From contig OU696582.1 in NCBI GenBank assembly GCA_916048095.2, positions 6,872,270-6,936,269 on the forward strand: 64,000 nucleotides of DNA, given 5' to 3'. Positions within the stretch are counted from its first letter, which is position 1; each line of letters starts with the position of its first letter. The position numbers and the translations under genes are program-made. The stretch is from Sacculina carcini (lineage: Eukaryota > Arthropoda > Thecostraca > Sacculinidae). The notes under the pieces were generated by a model. The model was given only the letters and a program-made list of their open reading frames with translations, had not been told where the DNA came from and did no database searches. Below, one piece after another: positions 1 through 55,232 of the stretch.

Positions 1-1239
1 GATTGCTGACGAATATATGGAAAGACGCTTTTTGCAATGTTGCGTTCAGTCGAAGTTTGGTACAGCCTGATCTCCTGCGTTAGCTTACAGAAACATCTCG
101 CGTTATCTATTTTGCCCTCCTTCTCCTTCATGATCGCTATCATGATCCGCCACTCATAAGGCACTCGTCCGTCTTCAATGCAACCAATCACTTCTTTCAC
201 CGACATGTTCTGTTCGCAAAGGTATTTGCTCAAGACACGGCTTTCTCTACCCTTGCGCAGAGGAGCCCTGACACCGTAGATTGCGAAATGGGCAAGCCGG
301 TCGAAATTTGTCACACAATCATCTCGGCCAGTACATATGGCCTTATCGGTCAGTAACTCTGCCATGTCAGCATTATAATCATAAGTCAAGTTTTGCTCCG
401 ATTACATACTCAAAATCCGCCGATGACCAGGCCCCCAGACCTGTTTCGAGCCACTTGTTCGTTATCACTGACCGCTCGATGTCGGACCGTACACCAGGGA
501 TCAACACACACCGAGGCCACCGATTGTGACGGGAAAAGAAGGCGCGGCAGAAGACCTTTCTGAACATGTTCCTTGTGTCGAGGGCAGCTCGTTCATCAAC
601 ATCAGGTGCCTCAGTCATGCGGAGGCGAAGATCGGCGGCGGTGCTGAGGGAGTTGACAACTGGAAATCCAAAGGACTTCCAGAGCCCGCTCACCTCCAGC
701 CGCAATTTCGCCTCGACATCTGTACTCACAGGTGCCATCATGTATCTAAACATATGGGTGTTGGTGATCCACTTCTCAACCCGCCGCATCTGACTGCTGA
801 AAGTTAGCTTCATAACCTTTTCATGGTTCTCGAGTACGATTCCGATAGCGAACGAGGGAACCATCTTCCAAACGTGGGCGAACCTGTTAGCATGCATGAT
901 GAGATCACGCCGACCGGCTTCTAGGAACCTCACGACTTCGGGGTACAGTTGATGAGTGCCGTACTTGTGGTACACATCCGCGATGCGGCTGTACAACAAT
1001 GAGCCCTCGTGACTTTCCACCATTGACAAAACACTGAGCCACATTGAGTATGTACCTAGGATCTTACGGGTGTGTGCACCTGTCTTCATCAACGAGACGA
1101 CTACAACATCGCCGTAAAACTCGGCTTGTATCTTTAGACCTGACACTTTCCGATATGCCCCGACTCGCGCGCCAACTCGTCGATAAACGGTCGAGAACCA
1201 CCGCTTCCAGCTGTTCCATCGTTCTATCTCGTCTGTCAT
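1..1239 (-). pseudogene. Array unit U0 (partial), L-fragment N-terminal part
   Basis: Cut by the window edge, so only the N-terminal-side third of the unit is visible. It carries the 2-bp deletion near 399 (gctccgattac instead of gctccaagattac), which shifts the frame and ends the reading frame at 379 in an aberrant tail. A private change gives Val where other copies have Ile (MVPSF, near 860). Confidence 0.9.
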
Positions 1240-4200
1240 CATCAAGCAGCCGATGCTGGACCGATCCACCTACCACTTTGCGAGTCACTTTCGTTAGGTC
1301 TGAAATGTCGACAGTCGTCTTCTCTGAACACATAGTCAAGAGGAGCTTGGCCAGATTTGAGTCATCGTCGGCGATGTCTGTGACAACATGTCTGTGATTT
1401 GTTTTAACGATGACACCATCGACGTGCTGTCGATGATGGCGAGGTTAGAACGTCGTGTACGCATGGCGGTCAATGATCCGACATACGGTTTGTGAGGTCC
1501 TCTGGTGCACAGTTTCTCTGCAGAGTTGGCGACAGTAATCAAGATCGACCTACTCGGGTCAATTGACTCCGAGTCCCACCGGCCGAGACAACATTGATCG
1601 ATAGTACAAGGCATGGTTATCCCTTCCATTACACGACCCCACGATGTCTCTCGAAGGGCGTGAGCAATGGTGTAGGAGCAACTAGAGGTAGGTGACAACA
1701 GCAGAGCTTCAATGCTCTGAGGGTTACTGTGGCTGAGTCGTGTCCTCATGTATGTCATGAGTCCGTCATCCATCGTGGCAACCATTTGACGGAAGTCGGT
1801 CTCAGACACCTCTGCTCCTTCACTCCGCTCGATCGTTTGGCGTACAGTACGTGAAGTACTGTACTGACCCACCACCTTATCACTGAGTGCCACGTTAGAC
1901 AGTTTAAAGAGGTGGGCCGCCACTCTTGGGTTGAACGGAGTGATGGAGAGAAGGTCACTGGTGAGCTCTTGGCGTTGGTGAGTCGACTGAATGGAGAATA
2001 GTCCTTTGATGTCTGGATTTTGGACGATGAGTGCAAGATCGTCTTTGACGCGACGCCGAATCACGTTCTCCGCAGTATGCGGAACATTGAGGTTTAACGC
2101 ATAAGGGTTTAGCAGTAACAATTCAAGGTCTCGTCTCGGTGAGGGTGTCAAGTCTATGAGTCTCGATATCGATGAAAACAGCTCTCTGTCCGTCAGGGAG
2201 ACAAAGGTTAACCACGAGACGGTGTCAGTCAGCGCATCCGTCTTGCCCCTGTAGCGGAAGTCACTCAGGAGCATGATCGGGAGCCCCCCGACACACGCTG
2301 GTACTGACATCAGTGCGCAGACGTCGCTTTCAGACCACGAACTGCAAAACTCATCGAACAATACATCAGCACACTCGATAAGTGTAAGCAAGTAGGCCGG
2401 ATTCGGGAAATAATCCACACCAGCAACTGTTGCGCCGGATGAAAACAGTGAAGATATGCGGTTAGAAAAAGTACGAATTCCGTCATTGCTCTCGGAATTC
2501 ACGCGAGAGGCCCGCTTTAACGCTGAGCTGACGGCGGCGCCCCTGAAATGGTAGGCTTTGCTGTATTCAAACAGCACCGTCGACAGCCAGGTCTCGTCGG
2601 GCTTCAGCGTCATTCCGAGAAGCGCCGAACGGTTCGACAGACTCAACACAAAGGCCGTGACAAAGTCCGACGCTGACTGGCCCAGGCGATCTAACACATG
2701 TGGCGCAGGAATTTCGATGACGATAACCTGGTTATCGCCCTGGCCCAGCAGCGTCGCTGTAGTACCTCGCTCCTCCGCGACGGCCAAGATGGTACACTGT
2801 GTGTGGAGAGTCCACCCCTTCTGCCGCATACCTTCCATCCACCGGGTAGGGGCTCTCCACACAACAGGACCATCTTCTGGCTCGTCTCCTCGAAACAATG
2901 GTGGCCTGAATCGATCCTGGAAGACGACCTTACAAAGGTAAGGAAAGAGTTGTGAAAACGCGAACACGCGGCGCAGTCCGAAAAGAGAGTCGAGCTCTGA
3001 GAATATCGCTGCACATGAATCATGCGACATCGACAAGCACCACCTCGAATAGTCCAGGCTGACGAACCCATATTTAGGCTCGTCAGCTCCGAAGGGTGCT
3101 GTCATCGTGCAGAGCGTGTCAAGTAAGACCTTCTCGGTCATCGTCATTGATTGCTGACGAATATATGGAAAGACGCTTTTTGCAATGTTGCGTTCAGTCG
3201 AAGTTTGGTACAGCCTGATCTCCTGCGTTAGCTTACATAAACATCTCGCGTTATCTATTTTGCCCTCCTTCTCCTTCATGATCGCTATCATGATCCGCCA
3301 CTCATAAGGCACTCGTCCGTCTTCAATGCAACCAATCACTTCTTTCACCGACATGTTCTGTTCGCAAAGGTATTTGCTTAAGACACGGCTTTCTCTACCC
3401 TTGCGCAGAGGAGCCCTGACACCGTAGATTGCGAAATGGGCAAGCCGGTCGAAATTTGTCACACAATCATCTCGGCCAGTACATATGGCCTTATCGGTCA
3501 GTAACTCTGCCATGTCAGCAGTATAATCATAAGTCAAGTTTTGCTCCAAGATTACATACTCAAAATCCGCCGATGACCAGGCCCCCAGACCTGTTTCGAG
3601 CCACTTGTTCGTTCTCACTGACCGCTCGATGTCGGACCGTACACCAGGGATCAACACACACCGAGGCCACCGATTGTGACGGGAAAAGAAGGCGCGGCAG
3701 AAGACCTTTCTGAACATGTTCCTTGTGTCGAGGGCAGCTCGTTCATCAACATCAGGTGCCTCAGTCATGCGGAGGCGAAGGTCGGCGGCGGTGCTGAGGG
3801 AGTTGACAACTGGAAATCCAAAGGACTTCCAGAGCCCGCTCACCTCCAGCCGCAATTTCGCCTCGACATCTGTACTCACAGGTGCCATCATGTATCTAAA
3901 CATATGGGTGTTGGTGATCCACTTCTCAACCCGCCGCATCTGACTGCTGAAAGTTAGCTTCATAACCTTTTCATGGTTCTCGAGTACGATTCCGATAGCG
4001 AACGAGGGAATCATCTTCCAAACGTGGGCGAACCTGTTAGCATGCATGATGAGATCACGCCGACCGGCTTCTAGGAACCTCACGACTTCGGGGTACAGTT
4101 GATGAGTGCCGTACTTGTGGTACACATCCGCGATGCGGCTGTACAACAATGAGCCCTCGTGACTTTCCACCATTGACAAAACACTGAGCCACATTGAGTA

Positions 4201-4389
4201 TGTACCTAGGATCTTACGGGTGTGTGCACCTGTCTTCATCAACGAGACGACTACAACATCGCCGTAAAACTCGGCTTGTATCTTTAGATCTGACACTTTC
4301 CGATATGCCCCGACTCGCGCGCCAACTCGTCGATAAACGGTCGAGAACCACCGCTTCCAGCTGTTCCATCGTTCTATCTCGTCTGTCAT
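1240..4389 (-). pseudogene. Array unit U1, L fragment with a long open frame (1336-4419)
   Basis: The frame is open for 1,027 codons from the junction (the nominal start at 4419 is a GTG created by the junction, not a native start). Trp is kept at the site that is a stop in ten other copies (about 2587). The usual bases near 1366-1380 are replaced by a different string 2 bp longer, which shifts the frame just before the HR motif. Markers: TADM, RTN, SDLK. Confidence 0.9.
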
Positions 4390-7300
4390 CATCAAGCAGC
4401 CGATGCTGGACCGATCCACCTACCACTTTGCGAGTCACTTTCGTTAGGTCTGAAATGTCGACAGTCGTCTTCTCTGAACACATAGTCAAGAGGAGCTTGG
4501 CCAGATTTGAGTCATCGCCGACGATCCACGACAACATGTCTGTGATTTGTTTTAACGATGACACCATCGACGTGCTGTCGATGAGGGCGAGGTTAGAACG
4601 TCGTGTACGCATGGCGGTCAATGATCCGATATACGGTTTGTGATGTCCTCTGGTGCACAGTTTCTCTGCAGAGTTGGCGACAGTAATCAAGATCGACCTA
4701 CTCGGGTCAATTGACTCCGAGTCCCACCGGCCGAGACAACATTGATCGATAGTACAAGGCATGGTTATCCCTTCCATTACACGACCCCACGATGTCTCTC
4801 GAAGGGCGTGAGCAATGGTGTAGGAGCAACTAGAGGTAGGTGACAACAGCAGAGCTTCAATGCTCTGAGGGTTACTGTGGCTGAGTCGTGTCCTCATGTA
4901 TGTCATGAGTCCGTCATCCATCGTGGCAACCATTTGACGGAAGTCGGTCTCAGACACCTCTGCTCCTTCACTCCGCTCGATCGTTTGGCGTACAGTACGT
5001 GAAGTACTGTACTGACCCACCACCTTATCACTGATTGCCACGTTAGACAGTTTAAAGAGGTGGGCCGCCACTCTTGGGTTGAACGGAGTGATGGAGAGAA
5101 GGTCACTGGTGAGCTCTTGGCGTTGGTGAGTCGACTGAATGGAGAATAGTCCTTTGATGTCTGGATTTTGAACGATGAGTGCAAGATCGTCTTTGACGCG
5201 ACGCCGAATCACGTTCTCCGCAGTATGCGGAACATTGAGGTTTAACGCATAAGGGTTTAGCAGTAACAATTCAAGGTCTCGTCTCGGTGAGGGTGTCAAG
5301 TCTATGAGTCTCGATATCGATGAAAACAGCTCTCTGTCCGTCAGGGAGACAAAGGTTAACCACGAGACGGTGTCAGTCAGCGCATCCGTCTTGCCCCTGT
5401 AGCGGAAGTCACTCAGGAGCATGATCGGGAGCCCCCCGACACACGCTGGTACTGACATCAGTGCGCAGACGTCGCTTTCAGACCACGAACTGCAAAACTC
5501 ATCGAACAATACATCAGCACACTCGATAAGTGTAAGCAAGTAGGCCGGATTCGGGAAATAATCCACACCAGCAACTGTTGCGCCGGATGAAAACAGTGAA
5601 GATATGCGGTTAGAAAAAGTACGAATTCCGTCATTGCTCTCGGAATTCACGCGAGAGGCCCGCTTTAACGCTGAGCTGACGGCGGCGCCCCTGAAATGGT
5701 AGGCTTTGCTGTATTCAAACAGCACCGTCGACAGTCAGGTCTCGTCGGGCTTCAGCGTCATTCCGAGAAGCGCCGAACGGTTCGACAGACTCAACACAAA
5801 GGCCGTGACAAAGTCCGACGCTGACTGGCCCAGGCGATCTAACACATGTGGCGCAGGAATTTCGATTACGATAACCTGGTTATCGCCCTGGCCCAGCAGC
5901 GTCGCTGTAGTACCTCGCTCCTCCGCGACGGCCAAGATGGTACACTGTGTGTGGAGAGTCCACCCCTTCTGCCGCATACCTTCCATCCACCGGGTAGGGG
6001 CTCTCCACACAACAGGACCATCTTCTGGCTCGTCTCCTCGAAACAATGGTGGCCTGAATCGATCCTGGAAGACGACCTTACAAAGGTAAGGAAAGAGCTG
6101 TGAAAACGCGAACACGCGGCGCAGTCCGAAAAGAGAGTCGAGCTCTGAGAATATCGCTGCACATGAATCATGCGACATCGACAAGCACCACCTCGAATAG
6201 TCCAGGCTGACGAACCCATATTTAGGCTCGTCAGCTCCGAAGGGTGCTGTCATCGTGCAGAGCGTGTCAAGTAAGACCTTCTCGGTCATCGTCATTGATT
6301 GCTGACGAATATATGGAAAGACGCTTTTTGCAATGTTGCGTTCAGTCGAAGTTTGGTACAGCCTGATCTCCTGCGTTAGCTTACAGAAACATCTCGCGTT
6401 ATCTATTTTGCCCTCCTTCTCCTTCATGATCGCTATCATGATCCGCCACTCATAAGGCACTCGTCCGTCTTCAATGCAACCAATCACTTCTTTCACCGAC
6501 ATGTTCTGTTCGCAAAGGTATTTGCTCAAGACACGGCTTTCTCTACCCTTGCGCAGAGGAGCCCTGACACCGTAGATTGCGAAATGGGCAAGCCGGTCGA
6601 AATTTGTCACACAATCATCTCGGCCAGTACATATGGCCTTATCGGTCAGTAACTCTGCTATGTCAGCATTATAATCATAAGTCAAGTTTTGCTCCAAGAT
6701 TACATACTCAAAATCCGCCCATGACCAGGCCCCCAGACCTGTTTCGAGCCACTTGTTCGTTATCACTGACCGCTCGATGTCGGACCGTACACCAGGGATC
6801 AACACACACCGAGGCCACCGATTGTGACGGGAAAAGAAGGCGCGGCAGAAGACCTTTCTGAACATGTTCCTTGTGTCGAGGGCAGCTCGTTCATCAACAT
6901 CAGGTGCCTCAGTCATGCGGAGGCGAAGGTCGGCGGCGGTGCTGAGGGAGTTGACAACTGGAAATCCAAAGGACTTCCAGAGCCCGCTCACCTCCAGCCG
7001 CAATTTCGCCTCGACATCTGTACTCACAGGTGCCATCATGTATCTAAACATATGGGTGTTGGTGATCCACTTCTCAACCCGCCGCATCTGACTGCTGAAA
7101 GTTAGCTTCATAACCTTTTCATGGTTCTCGAGTACGATTCCGATAGCGAACGAGGGAATCATCTTCCAAACGTGGGCGAACCTGTTAGCATGCATGATGA
7201 GATCACGCCGACCGGCTTCTAGGAACCTCACGACTTCGGGGTACAGTTGATGAGTGCCGTACTTGTGGTACACATCCGCGATGCGGCTGTACAACAATGA

Positions 7301-7537: not shown

Positions 7538-10500
7538 CATCAAGCAGCCGATGCTGGACCGATCCACCTACCACTTTGCGAGTCACTTTCGTTAGGTCTG
7601 AAATGTCGACAGTCGTCTTCTCTGAACACATAGTCAAGAGGAGCTTGGCCAGATTTGAGTCATCGCCGACGATCCACGACAACATGTCTGTGATTTGTTT
7701 TAACGATGACACCATCGACGTGCTGTCGATGATGGCGAGGTTAGAACGTCGTGTACGCATGGCGGTCAATGATCCGACATACGGTTTGTGAGGTCCTCTG
7801 GTGCACAGTTTCTCTGCAGAGTTGGCGACAGTAATCAAGATCGACCTACTCGGGTCAATTGACTCCGAGTCCCACCGGCCGAGACAACATTGATCGATAG
7901 TACAAGGCATGGTTATCCCTTCCACGACCCTTCCACGACCCTTCCACGACCCTTCCACGACATTACACGACCCCACGATGTCTCTCGAAGGGCGTGAGCA
8001 ATGGTGTAGGAGCAACTAGAGGTAGGTGACAACAGCAGAGCTTCAATGCTCTGAGGGTTACTGTGGCTGAGTCGTGTCCTCATGTATGTCATGAGTCCGT
8101 CATCCATCGTGGCAACCATTTGACGGAAGTCGGTCTCAGACACCTCTGCTCCTTCACTCCGCTCGATCGTTTGGCGTACAGTACGTGAAGTACTGTACTG
8201 ACCCACCACCTTATCACTGAGTGCCACGTTAGACAGTTTAAAGAGGTGGGCCGCCACTCTTGGGTTGAACGGAGTGATGGAGAGAAGGTCACTGGTGAGC
8301 TCTTGGCGTTGGTGAGTCGACTGAATGGAGAATAGTCCTTTGATGTCTGGATTTTGGACGATGAGTGCAAGATCGTCTTTGACGCGACGCCGAATCACGT
8401 TCTCCGCAGTATGCGGAACATTGAGGTTTAACGCATAAGGGTTTAGCAGTAACAATTCAAGGTCTCGTCTCGGTGAGGGTGTCAAGTCTATGAGTCTCGA
8501 TATCGATGAAAACAGCTCTCTGTCCGTCAGGGAGACAAAGGTTAACCACGAGACGGTGTCAGTCAGCGCATCCGTCTTGCCCCTGTAGCGGAAGTCACTC
8601 AGGAGCATGATCGGGAGCCCCCCGACACACGCTGGTACTGACATCAGTGCGCAGACGTCGCTTTCAGACCACGAACTGCAAAACTCATCGAACAATACAT
8701 CAGCACACTCGATAAGTGTAAGCAAGTAGGCCGGATTCGGGAAATAATCCACACCAGCAACTGTTGCGCCGGATGAAAACAGTGAAGATATGCGGTTAGA
8801 AAAAGTACGAATTCCGTCATTGCTCTCGGAATTCACGCGAGAGGCCCGCTTTAACGCTGAGCTGACGGCGGCGCCCCTGAAATGGTAGGCTTTGCTGTAT
8901 TCAAACAGCACCGTCGACAGCCAGGTCTCGTCGGGCTTCAGCGTCATTCCGAGAAGCGCCGAACGGTTCGACAGACTCAACACAAAGGCCGTGACAAAGT
9001 CCGACGCTGACTGGCCCAGGCGATCTAACACATGTGGCGCAGGAATTTCGATGACGATAACCTGGTTATCGCCCTGGCCCAGCAGCGTCGCTGTAGTACC
9101 TCGCTCCTCCGCGACGGCCAAGATGGTACACTGTGTGTGGAGAGTCCACCCCTTCTGCCGCATACCTTCCATCCACCGGGTAGGGGCTCTCCACACAACA
9201 GGACCATCTTCTGGCTCGTCTCCTCGAAACAATGGTGACCTGAATCGATCCTGGAAGACGACCTTACAAAGGTAAGGAAAGAGCTGTGAAAACGCGAACA
9301 CGCGGCGCAGTCCGAAAAGAGAGTCGAGCTCTGAGAATATCGCTGCACATGAATCATGCGACATCGACAAGCACCACCTCGAATAGTCCAGGCTGACGAA
9401 CCCATATTTAGGCTCGTCAGCTCCGAAGGGTGCTGTCATCGTGCAGAGCGTGTCAAGTAAGACCTTCTCGGTCATCGTCATTGATTGCTGACGAATATAT
9501 GGAAAGACGCTTTTTGCAATGTTGCGTTCAGTCGAAGTTTGGTACAGCCTGATTTCCTGCGTTAGCTTACAGAAACATCTCGCGTTATCTATTTTGCCCT
9601 CCTTCTCCTTCATGATCGCTATCATGATCCGCCACTCATAAGGCACTCGTCCGTCTTCAATGCAACCAATCACTTCTTTCACCGACATGTTCTGTTCGCA
9701 AAGGTATTTGCTCAAGGCACGGGTTTCTCTACCCTTGCGCAGAGGAGCCCTGACACCGTAGATTGCGAAATGGGCAAGCCGGTCGAAATTTGTCACACAA
9801 TCATCTCGGCCAGTACATATGGCCTTATCGGTCAGTAACTCTGCCATGTCAGCAGTATAATCATAAGTCAAGTTTTGCTCCAAGATTACATACTCAAAAT
9901 CCGCCGATGACCAGGCCCCCAGACCTGTTTCGAGCCACTTGTTCGTTCTCACTGACCGCTCGATGTCGGACCGTACACCAGGGATCAACACACACCGAGG
10001 CCACCGATTGTGACGGGAAAAGAAGGCGCGGCAGAAGACCTTTCTGAACATGTTCCTTGTGTCGAGGGCAGCTCGTTCATCAACATCAGGTGTCTCAGTC
10101 ATGCGGAGGCGAAGGTCGGCGGCGGTGCTGAGGGAGTTGACAACTGGAAATCCAAAGGACTTCCAGAGCCCGCTCACCTCCAGCCGCAATTTCGCCTCGA
10201 CATCTGTACTCACAGGTGCCATCATGTATCTAAACATATGGGTGTTGGTGATCCACTTCTCAACCCGCCGCATCTGACTGCTGAAAGTTAGCTTCATAAC
10301 CTTTTCATGGTTCTCGAGTACGATTCCGATAGCGAACGAGGGAATCATCTTCCAAACGTGGGCGAACCTGTTAGCATGCATGATGAGATCACGCCGACCG
10401 GCTTCTAGGAACCTCACGACTTCGGGGTACAGTTGATGAGTGCCGTACTTGTGGTACACATCCGCGATGCGGCTGTACAACAATGAGCCCTCGTGACTTT

Positions 10501-13867: not shown

Positions 13868-14266
13868 CATCAAGCAGCCGATGCTGGACCGATCCACCTA
13901 CCACTTTGCGAGTCACTTTCGTTAGGTCTGAAATGTCGACAGTCGTCTTCTCTGAACACATAGTCAAGAGGAGCTTGGCCAGATTTGAGTCATCGCCGAC
14001 GATCCACGACAACATGTCTGTGATTTGTTTTAACGATGACACCATCGACGTGCTGTCGATGATGGCGAGGTTAGAACGTCGTGTACGCATGGCGGTCAAT
14101 GATCCGACATACGGTTTGTGAGGTCCTCTGGTGCACAGTTTCTCTGCAGAGTTGGCGACAGTAATCAAGATCGACCTACTCGGGTCAATTGACTCCGAGT
14201 CCCACCGGCCGAGACAACATTGATCGATAGTACAAGGCATGGTTATCCCTTCCATTACACGACCCC

Positions 14267-14277
14267 ACGATGTCTCT
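14267..14277. repeat. Target-site duplication, left copy (acgatgtctct)
   Basis: Matches 20640-20650 exactly and flanks the retrotransposon. The first three bases could also belong to the element's aacg tail on the right, so the true duplication is 8-11 bp. Confidence 0.9.
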
Positions 14278-15039
14278 GGGCCCCCCTGCGGTAGGGGGGT
14301 TAGAATTCTGCCGCCGTAGCTGCCGCGTGTCGTAAGAGGCGACTAAAGGCAGACATGTCTGGTCAGGTTTCGGCCTGCTACTGGTAACATGTAACCCGGT
14401 ACAACCAGCCGCATGGTCGGAATGTCGGCGACTAATCCGGCCCCCCACTGGCCTATGCCAGTGAGGAGGGTGGCCAGACACCCAGCAGGAAGAAAAACAA
14501 GACCTGTCAAAGGGCGGATGAGCTGGTTAGCAGCCAACGGCCATCTGGAAACCCTCCCCCGTCGGATCGGCAAACAGGATCCTGGCCGCTGAGTGTCACG
14601 TCACCCGGGGTATAGTGGTGGCGTGACGCAACACTCGTCTTTGGCCTGCGCGTCGAACCCCGACGGGGCCGCTGTTTGGCTCCTCGACAGTGGAGAGAAT
14701 GGTCCGACGCCGGCACGGGTGGCCGGATAGGGCTCAAGAGGGTCAAGGGTGAGGTGCCTGGTGCTCGAGGGGGGTCCCGCCCGGTGCAGTGTCCGCCGTT
14801 TGCAGTGGGGCTGCAGTTGCTGTGTCCAGATGGACCGGTGGGGGTCACTGGTCCGGGCCCGGTGCTGTAGCTCCCGCGGACTCGTACCGGGCGGAGCTCG
14901 CAGCGAGCTCAGGGGTATTCGGTGCCCGTACAGCGCGCACCACCACTGGCGTGGCATCCCATGCTGGCTCTGCCCGTCCCCCCAGTAGGGCCCCGTGCAG
15001 AGGAGGGTGGTCGTGCGCGCAGAGACAAACAAACAATTC
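14278..15039 (+). promoter_or_regulatory. 5' UTR / internal promoter region of the retrotransposon
   Basis: GC-rich, no convincing coding. It opens with a short palindrome (ccccccctgcggtagggggg) and contains a second small hairpin (gtcgtaagaggcgac, near 14330-14344). Non-LTR elements of this type carry an internal promoter near their 5' end; the placement here is inference. Frames on either strand in this stretch look incidental. Confidence 0.5.
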
Positions 15040-16677
15040 ATGGCTTCAAAAACTCCAACCACCCCACCTGCTGGTCGTCCATCGGGCGATCGGCCGCGGC
15101 CGCCGAAAGGTGGTCGTACTCTGAGCCACTTGCACGGCGACAGTCGTGCTGCACCTGTGCCGATGGTGCTGGTTTTTACCAGCACCAATGAACACGTGAA
15201 ATTGTCCTCGCTGAACCCATTCCGTCGTCTGGATGGTTTCAAGAACATCGGAGACGCGCCTGTCGAGGCCAGCCGACAGAGAGACGGTTCTCTGCTGGTT
15301 AAATACGGCAATGAGACGGCAGCATCCCGCGCGATGAAGGCCGACACATTCCGGTATCGCGTGGGTACGGGTGAAAACAAGCGTTGGGTGAGCACCCCCA
15401 TCTCGGTGTGTGCGCACTCGACATTGAACCACGCCAGAGGTGTTCTGTTCTGTCGTGCGCTGGAGGGTGTTGATAACGATGAAATCTGCGACGGTTTGTC
15501 ATCCCAGGGTGTCATCCGTGTGGAGCGCATCGTCCGACGGCGTGAGGGTAGCGAGGTGCCAACGCACTCTTTCTTCCTCACGTTTGACGGTGCTGTTCTG
15601 CCGGATGACATCAAGATCGGTGACATCCGTCAGCGTATCCGTGTCCGCCCCTACGTACCCAACCCAATGCGATGCTACAGGTGCCAACGTTTCGGGCATA
15701 CGAGCTCCCGCTGCAACCGTGCTGAGATCTGCGGACGCTGCTCATCCGAACGGCACACCGCTGCTGATTGCGACAATGAGTATTTCTGCGTCAATTGCAG
15801 GAGCAGCGGTCATGCGTCCTCGTCGCGTGACTGCCCGGAATGGCTGAAAGAAAAAGAAATTCTGGCTATCCGCGCTGCCCAGCGCTGCAGTTTCGGCGAG
15901 GCGCGTGCTGTATATCGCAGCTCGCATCCGTCGGGCCCGTCCTTTGCCGGCGTCGTCACGAAGTCGGCTCAGCCTCCACAGTCTGTCGACTCGTTTTTGG
16001 AGAAGCTGACTGTTGGAGACTTCTTGAAGCTGGCGGGACGAATGGGCTTGAAGCTGGTCGTACCTGGGGCTGATAAACATGAGCTTGAACCAACACCGGT
16101 TGATCGGCGGCCTGAGGAGGCTGCCGTGTCGCGGTCGCCAACGGCCGCACCCCAGCGGTCCCAGGCGTCCGCGACCCAGCGGTCCCAGACGGCCGCAACC
16201 CAGCGGCCCAAGGCGGCCGCTCCCCAGCAGCCTGAAAAGGCTGCTGAGCGGCGACCTCAGCGGGTCGCCGATCGGCCGGTCAGCCGGCCGATGGACCGCG
16301 CTGGCAAATCGGCAGCGATGCCGGTTAGTCAGGGCGGCAAAAAACCGGCCGCTCAGCAGGCTTCCAAGCCAGCAGAGCGGTCGTCTCCGAACCGGAGGAA
16401 ATCCGGAGACTGGACGGTGGTACAGCACAAGAGCCGCCGTTCGGTCAAGTCAGCCTCGCCGAGGAGTGACCGGCGAGCATCTCCCGGTCACAAAGCGAGC
16501 GCGGTCCCTGCATCTCCGCGCTCGGCGGTTGCTAGCGCACCGCCTTCCGCACACGACGGAGCGACTCCCACCACTGCCATGGAGGTGGAGAGTTCCTCTA
16601 AGCGGAAGCTCTCGGCCTCTCCAAGTGGGTCCCCACCTGACTCGGAGAGAGGACGATCGGCTAAGCGATGCGATTAG
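15040..16677 (+). CDS. Retrotransposon ORF1, Gag-like RNA-binding protein with zinc knuckles
   Basis: About 545 residues from the ATG at 15040 (context ttcATGG); an in-frame ATG at 14995 would add 15 residues and is less likely. Three consecutive CCHC-type knuckles lie at about residues 210-265 (CYRCQRFGHTSSRC, CGRCSSERHTAADC, and CVNCRSSGHASSSRDC with a slightly longer spacing). The C-terminal ~200 residues are low complexity, rich in Pro, Gln, Ala, Arg and Ser, and basic. Such proteins bind the element RNA to form the ribonucleoprotein used for target-primed reverse transcription. ORF2 starts 85 bp downstream. No frameshift or premature stop is present. Confidence 0.92.
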   Translation: MASKTPTTPPAGRPSGDRPRPPKGGRTLSHLHGDSRAAPVPMVLVFTSTNEHVKLSSLNPFRRLDGFKNIGDAPVEASRQRDGSLLVKYGNETAASRAMKADTFRYRVGTGENKRWVSTPISVCAHSTLNHARGVLFCRALEGVDNDEICDGLSSQGVIRVERIVRRREGSEVPTHSFFLTFDGAVLPDDIKIGDIRQRIRVRPYVPNPMRCYRCQRFGHTSSRCNRAEICGRCSSERHTAADCDNEYFCVNCRSSGHASSSRDCPEWLKEKEILAIRAAQRCSFGEARAVYRSSHPSGPSFAGVVTKSAQPPQSVDSFLEKLTVGDFLKLAGRMGLKLVVPGADKHELEPTPVDRRPEEAAVSRSPTAAPQRSQASATQRSQTAATQRPKAAAPQQPEKAAERRPQRVADRPVSRPMDRAGKSAAMPVSQGGKKPAAQQASKPAERSSPNRRKSGDWTVVQHKSRRSVKSASPRSDRRASPGHKASAVPASPRSAVASAPPSAHDGATPTTAMEVESSSKRKLSASPSGSPPDSERGRSAKRCD

Positions 16678-16762
16678 GTACCTGTGCTACCTGGTTGTTA
16701 GTGTATATGTGCCTTTTTAACGGGAGTATTTATATGTATTTTATTCTATTATATTTATTTTT

Positions 16763-19700
16763 ATGTCCATTTTACAATGGAATATTAGAGGTATTAGACC
16801 GAATTTTAATGATTTACTGCATATTTTACACTCCCGACAACCATCGATTTTAGCAATACAGGAGACTAAGCTTTTAACTTCTTCGTATTTTAGTATTCAG
16901 GATTTTAATGTTTTTAGATTTGATAATCCCAGCTCGACTATAGCCCATGGCGGGGTTATGCTGGCTGTTCGCACCAGTGTACCCTGTCGCCGCCTGCATA
17001 TTCAGTCAGATTTGCAGGTGGTTGCGGTTCGGTGCTGGCTCGGTGGTAGGGAGGTGAGTGTGTGCTCATTGTACCTGCCGCCTGGTCGCCCGTTCCCAAG
17101 GGCTGACGTCGAGTTTTTAATCAGTTCACTTTCACCCCCTTTTTATGTGTTAGGCGATTTTAATGCTCACAGCCCTTTTTGGGGTTGTGATGCATATTGT
17201 AGCCGTGGTTTTATTATGGAGGATATTTTAACTGTATTAGACATAGGTATTTTAAACACAGGCACATATACGCATTGTACCATGCCATCGGGAAGCATGT
17301 CCGCTCTGGACCTCAGTCTGTGCAGTCCCAGTCTGCAGGCATCCACGAGCTGGACCGTTGAGAACAGTCTGTATGGGAGTGACCACTTCCCTATATGGAT
17401 CTGTCTCAATGAGGTACCTAGGTTGGGAACACGACCACCGAGATGGAATTTCAAACGAGCTGATTGGGTCCGCTATGATTGCTTGACACTGGAAGCCATG
17501 GGCAACCCCACACTTCGACCCAGCGTCGAAGGTTTTGCTGAGGCCATTGTCACCTGTGCCAAACAGAGCATTCCGCGTACGGCATCGCGTCCCCGGCGGC
17601 GTCCTGTTCCTTGGTGGACAGACGCGTGTGCTACGGCGTTGCGAGAGCGACGTCGTTGCTGGGGTCGCTTCCGGCGCAACAGCACGTTGGCAAACATGCT
17701 TTGCTTCCGCCACGCTCGCGCAAAAGCTCGATGGACCTTTCGCGAGGCGAAGCGGGCCTCGTGGGTGTCCTATGTGTCCAGCATTAATCGGCATTGTCCT
17801 ATATCCACCATATGGGACCGTATAAAGCGCATCTCTGGTAAGTACCGTCCCAATCCACTGCCTTCTCTGAAGATCAGTGGCGTGGACGTGATTAATCCGG
17901 AGCATGTTGCTGACGAAATTGGCCGATATTTAGCGGAGCGCTGTCGTGCAAACGTAGACGACCCTGATTTTGCGGCGATCAAACAGCAGTGCGAGAGATC
18001 ACCCGTTGATTTCTCCACCAGCTGTCAGCTGCCAATCAACAGCGATTTTTCTGCATCTGAGCTGAGAACGGCCTTGCGATCGCTTCGCGATGTGGCTGAA
18101 GGCCCTGATGAGGTGCACAACCTCATGCTGAAACGTCTGTCGCCCGCAGTGCTGTCCACCTTGCTGCAGGTCTTCAATGATCTGTGGAGTGGTGGGCAGT
18201 TTCCGGCCTCCTGGCGACGGGCAATCGTGATACCCATCATGAAACAGGGCAAATCGGGCGATCACCCGTCTGACTATCGCCCGATATCGCTTACCTCCAG
18301 TCTCTGCAAACTGTTTGAGAAAATGGTTTGCAGACGGCTGGTATGGTTTCTGGAACGCGGTCGGCTGTTCAATGATGCTCAGTGCGGATTTCGCCAGGGT
18401 CGCTCAACGTTAGACCACTTGGTGACCATTGACTCTCGCGTACGTGAAAGTTTCACGCGAGGTCACCACGTCGGGGCGATATTCTTTGACATCGAAAAGG
18501 CATATGACACCACATGGCGACATGGTATTCTTCGCAAACTGCATCGCTGTGGTGTCAGAGGCAACATGGGGAGGTTCGTACACAATTTCCTTTTGCACCG
18601 CACATTCTGTGTGCGTGTGGGGAACTCCCTGTCTCGTTCGTTCGATCAGGCAGAAGGCGTTCCACAGGGTAGTGTGCTCAGCGTGGCCCTTTTTGCCATA
18701 ATGATCAACGACATTGACGATCATTTGCCTCCCTCGATTGGACGGTCTCTATTTGTGGACGACTTCGCCATATGGTGTTCTTCCCGCAGCACTGTTGCTG
18801 TCCAGCGTCAACTGCAGCTGGCGGTGAATAAAATAGAGACATGGGGAACGCGTAACGGCTTCCGCTTCTCGACGTCCAAAACGGTCGGTGTACACTTCTG
18901 CCGCCGTCGAGGTGCCTGCCCTGACATGGAAGTGGAATTGTACGGCAGTGCTGTCTCATTCCAACGCACGGTTCGGTTTTTAGGGGTCACGTTGGACTCG
19001 CGCTTGACCTACACCGACCATATTTCACAGCTGAGAATCACTTGTCTAAAGGCACTGAATGTGCTGAAGACTGTTTCCCGCATGCGGTATGGAGCAGATC
19101 GACAGTCCCTTCTCCTTCTGTACCGCTCGTTAGTCAGGTCGCGTCTCGATTACGCAAGCATCGTATATGATCTGGCTTCGGAGTCAGCAAAAGGCCGTTT
19201 GAATGTCGTACACCACGCAGGGATACGCATTGCCACCGGCGCGTTTCGCACGTCGCCAATCGTCAGCCTCCTTGTTGAGGCTGATGAGGCTCCGCTGGCG
19301 CTCCGTCGTCAAGAGCTGGTCATGCGTTATTCTTGCAAGCTGGCAAGCACCCATGAAAACCCCGCGTATGACGTGGTATTTTCCCAGCATGTGCCTGAGC
19401 AGCAGCACCTTCCAGGACCTCAGTGTTCTGTGCTGTTTTGCAGCAAAATGAGGGCACTGCTGGAGTCATGCGGGATGGGTGCTAACGACGTCCTCAGACA
19501 AGAATACACGGCGGAGTCACCCTGGGAATTGGTCACACCCGAGGTTGACGTCTCGCTAGCAGCTCTGCCGAAACACCGTACAGTGCCCAGTGTGCTTCGC
19601 TCAAACACACTGGAGCGAATTCATTCTTACGGACGGTATACTGCCGTGTACACTGATGGATCTAAGTCGGCCAGTGGTGTGGGTTGTGCGTTTGTAAGTG

Positions 19701-20464
19701 GAGGTATGTGCCGCTCGAGCACGCTGCCACCGAGCGCCTCCATTTACACGGCTGAACTTCACGCTATCCTGCTGGCCCTGGTTTTTATTCGCTCATCTTC
19801 TTTTTCATTGTTTTTAGTTTTATCTGATTCCCTTAGTGCTTTAACTTCATTATCGTCTTTCTCCTTACATCCTCTTATACAGAGGATTTTTATCTCTCTT
19901 GACATCATCCACCACCAGGGCAAGCGTGTAAAGTTCTGCTGGATTCCGGCCCATATTGGTATTTTGGGCAACGAGCGAGCTGACAGAGCCGCAAAAAGAG
20001 CTGCTGAACGAGACTTTTATTCATTTTATTTTAACTTTCCCATTCCGTATTCGGACTTTTATCCTATTATACATCGTTTTATCCGTTCTCGCTGGCAGCT
20101 CTCCTGGGACGAATGTGGTTCTAACAAATTAAAAGCTGTGAAGCCCGAAATCGGACATTGGATGTGCTCTTGTCGCCGGAAGAGGTCCGAGGAAGTGGCG
20201 CTCTGTCGTCTGCGTGTGGGTCACACGTACGATACGCATCGCCATCTTCTACTCGGACAACCTGAACCCACGTGCAGCGCATGTAATGTACGTCTCTCCG
20301 TGCAGCACATCCTGGTGGAATGCCCATCATTCTCAGAGGCGCGTCAACGTTTTCTTGGATCCGTTCGGACTATTCACGATGTTCTCGGACAGGAGCAATC
20401 GGCGGTCATTGAGGGCCGCATTTTTGAGTTTTTACGGCTTTTGCCTATTAGAATTATTTATTGA
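16763..20464 (+). CDS. Retrotransposon ORF2: endonuclease, reverse transcriptase, RNase H
   Basis: 1,233 residues, uninterrupted. An AP-type endonuclease lies at about residues 1-230 (LQWNIRG, IQETKL, LGDFNAHSPFWG, GSDHFPIW). The reverse transcriptase spans about 450-800, with DYRPISLTS, GFRQGRSTLDHL, the motif-A aspartate in [18 protein letters not shown], and the catalytic pair in FVDDFAIW at 666-667. RNase H lies at about 960-1100 (YTDGSKSASG with Asp965, AELHAIL, SDSLSAL, IPAHIGILGNERADRAAK). A Cys/His cluster (CSACNVRLSVQHILVEC) follows. The protein nicks target DNA, copies the element RNA at the nick and removes the RNA strand. All key residues are present, so it could be active. Confidence 0.95.
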   Translation: MSILQWNIRGIRPNFNDLLHILHSRQPSILAIQETKLLTSSYFSIQDFNVFRFDNPSSTIAHGGVMLAVRTSVPCRRLHIQSDLQVVAVRCWLGGREVSVCSLYLPPGRPFPRADVEFLISSLSPPFYVLGDFNAHSPFWGCDAYCSRGFIMEDILTVLDIGILNTGTYTHCTMPSGSMSALDLSLCSPSLQASTSWTVENSLYGSDHFPIWICLNEVPRLGTRPPRWNFKRADWVRYDCLTLEAMGNPTLRPSVEGFAEAIVTCAKQSIPRTASRPRRRPVPWWTDACATALRERRRCWGRFRRNSTLANMLCFRHARAKARWTFREAKRASWVSYVSSINRHCPISTIWDRIKRISGKYRPNPLPSLKISGVDVINPEHVADEIGRYLAERCRANVDDPDFAAIKQQCERSPVDFSTSCQLPINSDFSASELRTALRSLRDVAEGPDEVHNLMLKRLSPAVLSTLLQVFNDLWSGGQFPASWRRAIVIPIMKQGKSGDHPSDYRPISLTSSLCKLFEKMVCRRLVWFLERGRLFNDAQCGFRQGRSTLDHLVTIDSRVRESFTRGHHVGAIFFDIEKAYDTTWRHGILRKLHRCGVRGNMGRFVHNFLLHRTFCVRVGNSLSRSFDQAEGVPQGSVLSVALFAIMINDIDDHLPPSIGRSLFVDDFAIWCSSRSTVAVQRQLQLAVNKIETWGTRNGFRFSTSKTVGVHFCRRRGACPDMEVELYGSAVSFQRTVRFLGVTLDSRLTYTDHISQLRITCLKALNVLKTVSRMRYGADRQSLLLLYRSLVRSRLDYASIVYDLASESAKGRLNVVHHAGIRIATGAFRTSPIVSLLVEADEAPLALRRQELVMRYSCKLASTHENPAYDVVFSQHVPEQQHLPGPQCSVLFCSKMRALLESCGMGANDVLRQEYTAESPWELVTPEVDVSLAALPKHRTVPSVLRSNTLERIHSYGRYTAVYTDGSKSASGVGCAFVSGGMCRSSTLPPSASIYTAELHAILLALVFIRSSSFSLFLVLSDSLSALTSLSSFSLHPLIQRIFISLDIIHHQGKRVKFCWIPAHIGILGNERADRAAKRAAERDFYSFYFNFPIPYSDFYPIIHRFIRSRWQLSWDECGSNKLKAVKPEIGHWMCSCRRKRSEEVALCRLRVGHTYDTHRHLLLGQPEPTCSACNVRLSVQHILVECPSFSEARQRFLGSVRTIHDVLGQEQSAVIEGRIFEFLRLLPIRIIY

Positions 20465-20622
20465 GTTTTATTTCTTGACTTTCACATTCATTTTGTTCAC
20501 TATCACACTTATTTATTTCATCATTCCATTCCTCATGTCCATCATTTTTGGGTGTTTAGGCTGTGAATAGACTGGGGGGTGCCGTATGGTCCCAGAGGCC
20601 GGTGCACCCCATAAACACAAAT
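20465..20622 (+). other. 3' UTR of the I-like retrotransposon
   Basis: T-rich after the ORF2 stop, then ggtcccagaggccggtgcac just upstream of the tail. It probably holds the signal recognised by the element's own reverse transcriptase (inference). Confidence 0.6.
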
Positions 20623-20642
20623 AACGAACGAACGAACGAACG
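20623..20642 (+). repeat. (AACG)5 retrotransposon tail
   Basis: Five perfect aacg units at the 3' end, the last merging with the target-site duplication. Short tandem tails in place of poly(A) are usual for I-like elements. Confidence 0.9.
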
Positions 20643-20650
20643 ATGTCTCT
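20640..20650. repeat. Target-site duplication, right copy (acgatgtctct)
   Basis: Same 11 bases as 14267-14277; the viral unit continues with cgaaggg as in the uninterrupted copies. Confidence 0.9.
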
Positions 20651-23388
20651 CGAAGGGCGTGAGCAATGGTGTAGGAGCAACTAGAGGTAGGTGACAACAG
20701 CAGAGCTTCAATGCTCTGAGGGTTACTGTGGCTGAGTCGTGTCCTCATGTATGTCATGAGTCCGTCATCCATCGTGGCAACCATTTGACGGAAGTCGGTC
20801 TCAGACACCTCTGCTCCTTCACTCCGCTCGATCGTTTGGCGTACAGTACGTGAAGTACTGTACTGACCCACCACCTTATCACTGAGTGCCACGTTAGACA
20901 GTTTAAAGAGGTGGGCCGCCACTCTTGGGTTGAACGGAGTGATGGAGAGAAGGTCACTGGTGAGCTCTTGGCGTTGGTGAGTCGACTGAATGGAGAATAG
21001 TCCTTTGATGTCTGGATTTTGGACGATGAGTGCAAGATCGTCTTTGACGCGACGCCGAATCACGTTCTCCGCAGTATGCGGAACATTGAGGTTTAACGCA
21101 TAAGGGTTTAGCAGTAACAATTCAAGGTCTCGTCTCGGTGAGGGTGTCAAGTCTATGAGTCTCGATATCGATGAAAACAGCTCTCTGTCCGTCAGGGAGA
21201 CAAAGGTTAACCACGAGACGGTGTCAGTCAGCGCATCCGTCTTGCCCCTGTAGCGGAAGTCACTCAGGAGCATGATCGGGAGCCCCCCGACACACGCTGG
21301 TACTGACATCAGTGCGCAGACGTCGCTTTCAGACCACGAACTGCAAAACTCATCGAACAATACATCAGCACACTCGATAAGTGTAAGCAAGTAGGCCGGA
21401 TTCGGGAAATAATCCACACCAGCAACTGTTGCGCCGGATGAAAACAGTGAAGATATGCGGTTAGAAAAAGTACGAATTCCGTCATTGCTCTCGGAATTCA
21501 CGCGAGAGGCCCGCTTTAACGCTGAGCTGACGGCGGCGCCCCTGAAATGGTAGGCTTTGCTGTATTCAAACAGCACCGTCGACAGCCAGGTCTCGTCGGG
21601 CTTCAGCGTCATTCCGAGAAGCGCCGAACGGTTCGACAGACTCAACACAAAGGCCGTGACAAAGTCCGACGCTGACTGGCCCAGGCGATCTAACACATGT
21701 GGCGCAGGAATTTCGATGACGATAACCTGGTTATCGCCCTGGCCCAGCAGCGTCGCTGTAGTACCTCGCTCCTCCGCGACGGCCAAGATGGTACACTGTG
21801 TGTGGAGAGTCCACCCCTTCTGCCGCATACCTTCCATCCACCGGGTAGGGGCTCTCCACACAACAGGACCATCTTCTGGCTCGTCTCCTCGAAACAATGG
21901 TGGCCTGAATCGATCCTGGAAGACGACCTTACAAAGGTAAGGAAAGAGTTGTGAAAACGCGAACACGCGGCGCAGTCCGAAAAGAGAGTCGAGCTCTGAG
22001 AATATCGCTGCACATGAATCATGCGACATCGACAAGCACCACCTCGAATAGTCCAGGCTGACGAACCCATATTTAGGCTCGTCAGCTCCGAAGGGTGCTG
22101 TCATCGTGCAGAGCGTGTCAAGTAAGACCTTCTCGGTCATCGTCATTGATTGCTGACGAATATATGGAAAGACGCTTTTTGCAATGTTGCGTTCAGTCGA
22201 AGTTTGGTACAGCCTGATCTCCTGCGTTAGCTTACATAAACATCTCGCGTTATCTATTTTGCCCTCCTTCTCCTTCATGATCGCTATCATGATCCGCCAC
22301 TCATAAGGCACTCGTCCGTCTTCAATGCAACCAATCACTTCTTTCACCGACATGTTCTGTTCGCAAAGGTATTTGCTCAAGACACGGCTTTCTCTACCCT
22401 TGCGCAGAGGAGCCCTGACACCGTAGATTGCGAAATGGGCAAGCCGGTCGAAATTTGTCACACAATCATCTCGGCCAGTACATATGGCCTTATCGGTCAG
22501 TAACTCTGCCATGTCAGCAGTATAATCATAAGTCAAGTTTTGCTCCAAGATTACATACTCAAAATCCGCCGATGAACAGGCCCCCAGACCTGTTTCGAGC
22601 CACTTGTTCGTTCTCACTGACCGCTCGATGTCGGACCGTACACCAGGGATCAACACACACCGAGGCCACCGATTGTGACGGGAAAAGAAGGCGCGGCAGA
22701 AGACCTTTCTGAACATGTTCCTTGTGTCGAGGGCAGCTCGTTCATCAACATCAGGTGCCTCAGTCATGCGGAGGCGAAGGTCGGCGGCGGTGCTGAGGGA
22801 GTTGACAACTGGAAATCCAAAGGACTTCCAGAGCCCGCTCACCTCCAGCCGCAATTTCGCCTCGACATCTGTACTCACAGGTGCCATCATGTATCTAAAC
22901 ATATGGGTGTTGGTGATCCACTTCTCAACCCGCCGCATCTGACTGCTGAAAGTTAGCTTCATAACCTTTTCATGGTTCTCGAGTACGATTCCGATAGCGA
23001 ACGAGGGAATCATCTTCCAAACGTGGGCGAACCTGTTAGCATGCATGATGAGATCACGCCGACCGGCTTCTAGGAACCTCACGACTTCGGGGTACAGTTG
23101 ATGAGTGCCGTACTTGTGGTACACATCCGCGATGCGGCTGTACAACAATGAGCCCTCGTGACTTTCCACCATTGACAAAACACTGAGCCACATTGAGTAT
23201 GTACCTAGGATCTTACGGGTGTGTGCACCTGTCTTCATCAACGAGACGACTACAACATCGCCGTAAAACTCGGCTTGTATCTTTAGATCTGACACTTTCC
23301 GATATGCCCCGACTCGCGCGCCAACTCGTCGATAAACGGTCGAGAACCACCGCTTCCAGCTGTTCCATCGTTCTATCTCGTCTGTCAT

Positions 23389-48400: not shown

Positions 48401-48566
48401 GTGCACCTGTCTTCATCAACGAGACGACTACAACATCGCCGTAAAACTCGGCTTGTATCTTTAGACCTGACACTTTCCGATATGCCCCGACTCGCGCGCC
48501 AACTCGTCGATAAACGGTCGAGAACCACCGCTTCCAGCTGTTCCATCGTTCTATCTCGTCTGTCAT
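45421..48566 (-). pseudogene. Array unit U13, L fragment with 2-bp deletion and TGA
   Basis: Close match to U12, with the deletion near 47726 and TGA at 46766-46768. Frames 47706-48596, 46766-47716 and 45245-46756. It differs from U12 at a few bases (for example near 47958, gaaggtcgg versus gaagatcgg). Confidence 0.9.
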
Positions 48567-51500
48567 CATCAAGCAGCCGATGCTGGACCGATCCACCTAC
48601 CACTTTGCGAGTCACTTTCGTTAGGTCTGAAATGTCGACAGTCGTCTTCTCTGAACACATAGTCAAGAGGAGCTTGGCCAGATTTGAGTCATCGCCGACG
48701 ATCCACGACAACATGTCTGTGATTTGTTTTAACGATGACACCATCGACGTGCTGTCGATGATGGCGAGGTTAGAACGTCGTGTACGCATGGCGGTCAATG
48801 ATCCGACATACGGTTTGTGAGGTCCTCTGGTGCACAGTTTCTCTGCAGAGTTGGCGACAGTAATCAAGATCGACCTACTCGGGTCAATTGACTCCGAGTC
48901 CCACCGGCCGAGACAACATTGATCGATAGTACAAGGCATGGTTATCCCTTCCATTACACGACCCCACGATGTCTCTCGAAGGGCGTGAGCAATGGTGTAG
49001 GAGCAACTAGAGGTAGGTGACAACAGCAGAGCTTCAATGCTCTGAGGGTTACTGTGGCTGAGTCGTGTCCTCATGTATGTCATGAGTCCGTCATCCATCG
49101 TGGCAACCATTTGACGGAAGTCGGTCTCAGACACCTCTGCTCCTTCACTCCGCTCGATCGTTTGGCGTACAGTACGTGAAGTACTGTACTGACCCACCAC
49201 CTTATCACTGAGTGCCACGTTAGACAGTTTAAAGAGGTGGGCCGCCACTCTTGGGTTGAACGGAGTGATGGAGAGAAGGTCACTGGTGAGCTCTTGGCGT
49301 TGGTGAGTCGACTGAATGGAGAATAGTCCTTTGATGTCTGGATTTTGGACGATGAGTGCAAGATCGTCTTTGACGCGACGCCGAATCACGTTCTCCGCAG
49401 TATGCGGAACATGGAGGTTTAACGCATAAGGGTTTAGCAGTAACAATTCAAGGTCTCGTCTCGGTGAGGGTGTCAAGTCTATGAGTCTCGATATCGATGA
49501 AAACAGCTCTCTGTCCGTCAGGGAGACAAAGGTTAACCACGAGACGGTGTCAGTCAGCGCATCCGTCTTGCCCCTGTAGCGGAAGTCACTCAGGAGCATG
49601 ATCGGGAGCCCCCCGACACACGCTGGTACTGACATCAGTGCGCAGACGTCGCTTTCAGACCACGAACTGCAAAACTCATCGAACAATACATCAGCACACT
49701 CGATAAGTGTAAGCAAGTAGGCCGGATTCGGGAAATAATCCACACCAGCAACTGTTGCGCCGGATGAAAACAGTGAAGATATGCGGTTAGAAAAAGTACG
49801 AATTCCGTCATTGCTCTCGGAATTCACGCGAGAGGCCCGCTTTAACGCTGAGCTGACGGCGGCGCCCCTGAAATGGTAGGCTTTGCTGTATTCAAACAGC
49901 ACCGTCGACAGTCAGGTCTCGTCGGGCTTCAGCGTCATTCCGAGAAGCGCCGAACGGTTCGACAGACTCAACACAAAGGCCGTGACAAAGTCCGACGCTG
50001 ACTGGCCCAGGCGATCTAACACATGTGGCGCAGGAATTTCGATGACGATAACCTGGTTATCGCCCTGGCCCAGCAGCGTCGCTGTAGTACCTCGCTCCTC
50101 CGCGACGGCCAAGATGGTACACTGTGTGTGGAGAGTCCACCCCTTCTGCCGCATACCTTCCATCCACCGGGTAGGGGCTCTCCACACAACAGGACCATCT
50201 TCTGGCTCGTCTCCTCGAAACAATGGTGGCCTGAATCGATCCTGGAAGACGACCTTACAAAGGTAAGGAAAGAGCTGTGAAAACGCGAACACGCGGCGCA
50301 GTCCGAAAAGAGAGTCGAGCTCTGAGAATATCGCTGCACATGAATCATGCGACATCGACAAGCACCACCTCGAATAGTCCAGGCTGACGAACCCATATTT
50401 AGGCTCGTCAGCTCCGAAGGGTGCTGTCATCGTGCAGAGCGTGTCAAGTAAGACCTTCTCGGTCATCGTCATTGATTGTTGACGAATATATGGAAAGACG
50501 CTTTTTGCAATGTTGCGTTCAGTCGAAGTTTGGTACAGCCTGATCTCCTGCGTTAGCTTACAGAAACATCTCGCGTTATCTATTTTGCCCTCCTTCTCCT
50601 TCATGATCGCTATCATGATCCGCCACTCATAAGGCACTCGTCCGTCTTCAATGCAACCAATCACTTCTTTCACCGACATGTTCTGTTCGCAAAGGTATTT
50701 GCTCAAGACACGGCTTTCTCTACCCTTGCGCAGAGGAGCCCTGACACCGTAGATTGCGAAATGGGCAAGCCGGTCGAAATTTGTCACACAATCATCTCGG
50801 CCAGTACATATGGCCTTATCGGTCAGTAACTCTGCCATGTCAGCAGTATAATCATAAGTCAAGTTTTGCTCCAAGATTACATACTCAAAATCCGCCGATC
50901 ACCAGGCACCCAGACCTGTTTCGAGCCACTTGTTCGTTCTCACTGACCGCTCGATGTCGGACCGTACACCAGGGATCAACACACACCGAGGCCACCGATT
51001 GTGACGGGAAAAGAAGGCGCGGCAGAAGACCTTTCTGAACATGTTCCTTGTGTCGAGGGCAGCTCGTTCATCAACATCAGGTGCCTCAGTCATGCGGAGG
51101 CGAAGGTCGGCGGCGGTGCTGAGGGAGTTGACAACTGGAAATCCAAAGGACTTCCAGAGCCCGCTCACCTCCAGCCGCAATTTCGCCTCGACATCTGTAC
51201 TCACAGGTGCCATCATGTATCTAAACATATGGGTGTTGGTGATCCACTTCTCAACCCGCCGCATCTGACTGCTGAAAGTTAGCTTCATAACCTTTTCATG
51301 GTTCTCGAGTACGATTCCGATAGCGAACGAGGGAATCATCTTCCAAACGTGGGCGAACCTGTTAGCATGCATGATGAGATCACGCCGACCGGCTTCTAGG
51401 AACCTCACGACTTCGGGGTACAGTTGATGAGTGCCGTACTTGTGGTACACATCCGCGATGCGGCTGTACAACAATGAGCCCTCGTGACTTTCCACCATTG

Positions 51501-51714
51501 ACAAAACACTGAGCCACATTGAGTATGTACCTAGGATCTTACGGGTGTGTGCACCTGTCTTCATCAACGAGACGACTACAACATCGCCGTAAAACTCGGC
51601 TTGTATCTTTAGACCTGACACTTTCCGATATGCCCCGACTCGCGCGCCAACTCGTCGATAAACGGTCGAGAACCACCGCTTCCAGCTGTTACATCGTTCT
51701 ATCTCGTCTGTCAT
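48567..51714 (-). repeat. Array unit U14, proximal copy continuous with the native L 5' end
   Basis: The only unit whose right edge continues into authentic L sequence, so it marks where the array meets the original insertion. Its markers mix the two main lineages: TADM/RTN and the gatgacg variant of the TGG copies, yet TGA at 49912-49914. Private changes: stop at 50899-50901 and Asn to His (LHVPHT) near 49412. Confidence 0.93.
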
Positions 51715-52511: not shown

Positions 52512-52531
52512 GATTGTGTGGGGAGATAGTT

Positions 52532-54470: not shown

Positions 54471-54497
54471 GAAAAAAATGGCACTGTGTAGTGATTC

Positions 54498-54741: not shown

Positions 54742-54777
<36 letters not shown>

Positions 54778-54853: not shown

Positions 54854-54894
<41 letters not shown>

Positions 54895-55222: not shown

Positions 55223-55232
55223 GCACGTGCAG

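Follow-up and report, generated by a model that had tools for sequence, protein, structure and literature searches.

The 64,000-nucleotide stretch of the Sacculina carcini genome analysed here, hereafter called the window (C16:6872270-6936269, contig OU696582.1 in an assembly of 264 Mb and 43 contigs), contains part of a tandem array built from an internal segment of L, the polymerase gene of a mononegavirus. The whole array occupies C16:6856522-6923983 (67,462 bp) and is made of 19 copies of one unit (c02-c20) preceded on the left by a partial copy (c01, 1,254 bp). The array and its viral flank lie in a single 73,724-bp intron (C16:6853778-6927501), antisense to a prolidase gene. Growth of the array by unequal exchange between its units is well supported by the comparison of the copies.

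Self-comparison of the window gave a main spacing of 3148 bases. The unit measured 3144-3150 bases in most copies and 3132-3186 overall, the split copy described below being left out. It corresponds to nucleotides (nt) 340-3487 of L, numbered from the L start codon at position 52053 on the minus strand. A reference copy matched positions 1-51714, the inserted element aside, in a single orientation and with 98.46-100% identity. To the left of the window were found the remainder of c06, four further full copies and c01. The junction between units was identical in the five copies compared directly and was present at all 19 unit starts, with three mismatches at most allowed. At the right end, c20 is continuous with the native start of L, the join being between positions 51714 and 51715, whereas the outermost copy c01 ends at L nt 1593, where it joins a same-sense retrotransposon-like piece. 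A chance origin of such an array is excluded. The first-pass annotation had reported 14 full copies and one partial copy of about 3.15 kb, head to tail, of a mononegavirus L fragment lying in an animal chromosome and running into the native 5' end of L. The spacing and unit matches, the Pfam matches to polymerase and capping domains, the prolidase exons on both sides and the c20 join bear out each of these statements. Its array of more than 51 kb is real in the assembly, but its extent was underestimated since the array continues beyond the window edge, and it is not uninterrupted, the copy at 13868-23388 being split by a retrotransposon.

The host gene was recognised by matches to the Pfam metallopeptidase M24 family, on the plus strand and in the correct order, covering positions 2-49 and 78-130 in two flanking stretches (L016 and L017, respectively) and 147-194 in the window. 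Aligned to a solved Xaa-Pro dipeptidase (chain 5mc5, which we take to be human), the exons corresponded to chain positions 270-317 and 321-351, then, after the array, to 352-416. The intron ends are GT and AG, both at codon boundaries. No N bases were present in the window or in the flanking stretches L009-L020.

The copies could be compared base by base. Among c02-c20, 53 variable single-base columns were observed, with a mean pairwise difference of 11.85 (approximately 0.38%), and six indels separated the copies. A 19-bp insert in c11 was discarded as an indel, being retrotransposon tail that remained after trimming. The first four copies appeared again as a block: c01, c02, c03 and c04 differed from c05, c06, c07 and c08 by 0 (over the 1,254 bp of c01), 1, 2 and 3 single bases, respectively. 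Parts resembling c14/c17 and parts resembling c13/c15 are combined in c16, a mosaic copy, and all four combinations occurred at 20 of the 406 pairs of informative sites. Unequal exchange predicts near-identical units, a block repeat (here of four units) and mosaic copies, and this is the pattern observed; the first-pass annotation had already named it as a possible route of growth. The variable sites comprised 37 nonsynonymous, 12 synonymous and 4 stop changes, for neutral expectations of 36.8, 14.3 and 2.0. The array copies thus change neutrally, with no protein constraint. Among the 19 units, at least one keeps the L frame without a stop, the remaining units having stops or shifted frames, and we infer that the array has no protein function.

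The element that splits c11 is a non-long-terminal-repeat (non-LTR) retrotransposon flanked by an 11-bp direct repeat (14267-14277 and 20640-20650). Its first open reading frame (ORF1, 14995-16677) had a weak zinc-knuckle match, under the Pfam cutoff, and the second (ORF2, 16763-20464) contained endonuclease, reverse transcriptase and RNase H domains. The closest relative of ORF2 was 71% identical among the best 120 of 586 relatives. For a kinesin-like ORF, the named relatives among the best 120 of 7971 were all distant. Apart from this element, c11 and c12 showed no single-base difference, so the insertion is most simply read as younger than the c11/c12 duplication. No Rfam family (at the gathering score) or tRNA was found in the window, and the single 201-base stretch folded as DNA at the unit junction gave no hairpin (z 0.27). 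A breakpoint at unit positions 418-420 that seemed to be shared with other loci was rejected, as it simply marks the unit's own end within L.

Table 1. Features of the window and of the flanking stretch L017 (window positions, unless prefixed).
Feature	Position	Strand	Remarks
Array copy c06, part	1-1239	(-)	cut by the left edge of the window; array runs 15,748 bp further left
Array copies c07-c20 (14), L nt 340-3487 each, head to tail	1240-51714	(-)	unit matches; Pfam
First bases of c07-c20	1240, 4390, 7538, 10724, 13868, 23389, 26537, 29685, 32831, 35979, 39127, 42275, 45421, 48567
Non-LTR retrotransposon inside c11	14278-20639	(+)	Pfam; AACG tail; ends mapped
Native 5' start of L (nt 1-339)	51715-52053	(-)	continuous with c20; open frame extends to 50899
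Small ORF (~100 aa) between P-position ORF and L	52224-52529	(-)	matrix protein by position only; no Pfam family
P-position ORF, 168 aa	52637-53143	(-)	phosphoprotein by position only; no Pfam family at cutoff
Nucleoprotein-like ORF	53295-54425	(-)	weak BDV_P40 match, 21.8 bits (cutoff 26.3)
Prolidase exon before the array-bearing intron	L017:1410-1508	(+)	alignment to 5mc5 stops at 351
Prolidase exon after the array-bearing intron	55233-55430	(+)	aligns to 352-416 of chain 5mc5

The viral genes next to the array indicate the kind of virus involved. A minus-strand ORF of the array covers most of the Pfam polymerase domain (Mononeg_RNA_pol, E 2.9e-101) and the beginning of the capping domain (Mononeg_mRNAcap, E 9.4e-11). 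The best solved chains for an L piece were polymerases of 1711-1756 amino acids, presumably those of bornaviruses, with E values of 1.8e-37 to 4.7e-37, the next best being at 8e-21. In bornaviruses, the genes for the matrix protein (M) and the glycoprotein (G) lie between those for the phosphoprotein (P) and L. In the window, the interval from the P-position ORF to L has room for the 100-amino-acid ORF alone, and there is no space for G between the nucleoprotein gene (N) and L. Because M and G do not both lie between P and L, we describe the source, from its sequence, as a borna-like mononegavirus lineage and not as a bornavirus; this lineage may lack G at the usual place between N and L. Matches to the P-position ORF and to the small ORF were also seen directly before L in three other stretches (L026, L030 and L034), and N was present in L030 as in the window.

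The first-pass annotation held that endogenous mononegavirus sequences are usually single, short insertions, which is wrong for this genome. A search of the genome gave 44 other matches at 65-82% identity, which manual grouping assigned to 26 L loci spread over 18 contigs, or 27 loci with the window. These figures are a lower bound: the search skips very common words, and the window's own array was missing from its list. On the same terms, the best other match was 82% identical. Seventeen of the 27 loci were read, mostly the best matches, several with 1.5 kb of flank only and the C12 locus in part. Direct duplications containing L (at least 1 kb at 95% identity or more) were found at six of these 17: the window, C7 (98.5%), C10 (98.9%), C29:4.37M (95.7%), C16:8.86M (99.6%) and C20:2.32M (96.8%). 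A shorter pair was seen at C36:1.84M (558 bp at 90%). No duplication of that size and identity was found at C3, C21 (two loci), C15, C26, C12, C29:1.14M, C29:5.14M, C36:4.31M or C6, a 466-bp pair at 95.5% flanking L at C29:5.14M. As a control, 113 kb of flank contained no direct duplication of 1 kb or more at 95%. Two further arrangements were observed. At L031:3779-5328, L nt 394-972 is joined straight to nt 2440-3417, an internal deletion that may be defective-genome-like or of later date, and at L035:810-6661 an L copy is interrupted near nt 1672 by approximately 2.4 kb of other DNA.

The distribution of differences over codon positions separates two kinds of divergence. Between the window L and seven other loci, differences were concentrated at third positions, with first:second:third counts such as 38:15:195 (C3), 199:99:601 (C21:5.08M) and 304:186:643 (C26). 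This enrichment points to separate captures of related viruses. Between duplicates of the same locus, the counts were 29:24:36 at C29:4.37M, 7:10:11 and 26:14:24 at C10, and 9:5:11 and 3:1:6 at C7, and the C16:8.86M duplicates had no difference in 403 codons. On these counts, the differences between loci look viral and those between duplicates look post-integration. The locus C29:1.14M is an exception, as it holds two different viral L sequences head to tail (60:31:173). In this region (L025:4805-8467), the two L sequences join at 5880, and their overlap is 70% identical with third-codon-rich differences.

How the viral RNA was converted into DNA is suggested by the borders of two loci. At C29:1.14M, the L match ends at approximately L025:9853, and the final 90 bp of the retrotransposon found in the array, AACG tail included, follow from 9857 (L025:9857-9945), in the same sense and 94% identical. 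At C36:1.84M, an L stretch ends near L029:8047 and an internal part of the same retrotransposon starts at 8056 (L029:8056-9000), again in the same sense, at 93.8%. A retrotransposon switching to viral RNA during copying would produce same-sense joins of this type, pointing to the array's retrotransposon family as the one that made captures. At C16:8.86M and C29:5.14M, the matches to this retrotransposon are opposite in sense to L. At the array's own site, a role of a retrotransposon is inferred: the piece to the left of the array was called retrotransposon by eye and had no Pfam or solved-structure match. A retrotransposon-like piece adjoining L at C7 is 47-48% identical to it; the C7 piece was rejected as a capture join and is best read as flank joined to L by tandem duplication. 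No clear target duplication was found at the array locus, the comparison of L017:1509-2080 with window positions 54401-55240 yielding nothing but TG repeats and three common 9-base words; later insertions could hide such a duplication.

We propose the following origin for the array. A non-LTR retrotransposon would probably have made a DNA copy of the RNA of a borna-like mononegavirus, and this copy would have landed antisense in the prolidase intron. The segment from L nt 340 to 3487 would then have been duplicated head to tail on the chromosome, and repeated unequal exchange together with conversion between units would have carried it to approximately 20 copies while keeping the units alike. 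The original element would also have lost its outer 3' portion. We estimate the probability of this scheme as a whole at about 0.5, the first duplication in place and the loss of the 3' part being its conjectural steps. The composition of the duplicated blocks at other loci favours duplication on the chromosome there: the blocks hold 1.9 kb of non-viral-looking DNA at C16:8.86M (99.6% identical between copies) and 0.7 kb at C10 (99.5%), neither having any match to a viral query except one of 18 residues at an end, and those at C7 include the retrotransposon-like piece.

Several observations weigh against this scheme. No L sequence past nt 3487 was found in the window or in L009-L020, the only matches there being to the retrotransposon DNA of the queries, whereas such sequence occurs at 12 of the other 16 loci that were read. 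Given the same-sense retrotransposon joins at the two loci described above, the element may originally have ended at nt 1593, where c01 stops, a case that duplication in place could not account for; the rest of the unit would then have come from elsewhere, for example from circular L DNA. The microhomology of approximately 3 bp at the unit junction was judged from related loci. Within the array, some of the 53 variable columns adjoin indels, with which they probably form single complex changes, and c01 differs from c03 by one base only, so that its match to c05 adds little to the block repeat. Among the other loci, the C20 duplicates (26:23:47) lean mildly to third positions. The proportion of six in 17 may be too high, best-match loci having been chosen, or too low because of the 1.5-kb flanks. 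The controls were small, and the same 113 kb contained a 1.5-kb pair at 86.6% and shorter pairs of up to 96%.

These points give some weight to a second explanation, which we regard as less probable. Circular or other donor DNA carrying L nt 340-3487 would have recombined into an element that already ended at nt 1593, at a join with a retrotransposon made during capture, giving a tandem array at once, later modified by unequal exchange. The donor could derive from a defective viral genome or have been excised from another element. Circular viral DNA is made in insects, although our literature search turned up no paper on it. Such an event would account for the lack of sequence past nt 3487, for the single unit junction throughout and for the stop of the outer copy beside a same-sense retrotransposon-like piece; the like joins at C29:1.14M and C36:1.84M make it more likely, and duplication in place less so. 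On the other hand, the duplicated blocks at C16:8.86M, C10 and C7 include DNA not recognisably viral, so that a purely viral circle cannot have been the start at those loci. We retain capture followed by duplication on the chromosome as the preferred origin. It is improbable that the copy number is partly an artefact of assembly, with a wrong count due to units more than 99% alike. A 200-base N gap (L021:3703-3902) at the start of the duplicated L region of C7 does show that such regions are hard to assemble. The copies of the array, however, are told apart by the variable columns and indels, one of them carries a 6.4-kb retrotransposon with its direct repeat, and the prolidase exons are in the right order on both sides of a sequence free of N. 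Slightly less probable still is that selection keeps the array for the antisense RNA that it would supply against related viruses: its antisense position in the intron and the many related elements in the genome would suit this role, with which neutral change of the protein frame is compatible, but drift and unequal exchange account for the array without any function. The wider idea that captured polymerase genes are repeatedly amplified, the array being an amplified source of antiviral RNA and thus an immune memory strengthened by unequal exchange, seems to us about as doubtful as the assembly artefact.

To the right of the array, a further C-terminal prolidase exon was recognised, by eye only, near 56.1-56.2 kb. 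Reverse-transcriptase ORFs and other element fragments follow the prolidase exons (window positions 56732-58363 and 61040-63138), and a tandem array with a period of approximately 405 bp is located to the right of the window (L019:4634-7306).

Satellite DNA and tandem gene arrays are shaped by unequal exchange. The array resembles them in its near-identical units, block repeats and mosaic copies; it differs in being known from one locus, within an intron, and in having a unit derived from an RNA virus polymerase gene. Infectious hypodermal and hematopoietic necrosis virus (IHHNV) is a parvovirus, a single-stranded DNA virus. The available part of a report on Penaeus monodon describes a jumbled 9-kb IHHNV element with inverted and reordered fragments and repeat units (PMC8982415); in both cases one animal locus holds viral pieces in repeated form, whereas here the virus is an RNA virus and the array extends over 67 kb in one orientation. 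Endogenous bornavirus-like nucleoprotein and L elements (EBLNs and EBLLs) are likewise fragments of mononegavirus genes that reside in animal chromosomes, some of them produced by long interspersed nuclear element (LINE) machinery, and the EBLNs of afrotherians are said, in the portion of the source consulted, to be tandemly duplicated (PMC4982594). Those are described there as duplicated loci, some with their frames kept, in contrast to the approximately 20 neutral copies of internal L found here beside viral genes with no G between N and L. Mosquito satellite loci producing PIWI-interacting RNAs (piRNAs), with 33 and 27 alternating repeats over approximately 5.6 kb and with measured small RNAs, are also tandem repeats in a genic locus; they are not called viral in the accessible part of the paper (PMC7919454), and the present array is known from DNA alone. 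Among the matches listed by our literature search, which covered titles and abstract openings with subscription papers mostly outside it, none named a polymerase gene of an RNA virus arranged as a satellite-like array.

The DNA copy of an RNA virus gene can become satellite-like while lodged in a conserved host gene, and several loci of this genome were duplicated after capture. Should antisense small RNAs be made from such arrays, selection could act on how many copies of the captured viral DNA are present, and a genome with many loci and duplications of varied size would allow selection on copy number to be tested. Even without any function, the array is a warning for studies of the copy number and expression of captured viral genes.

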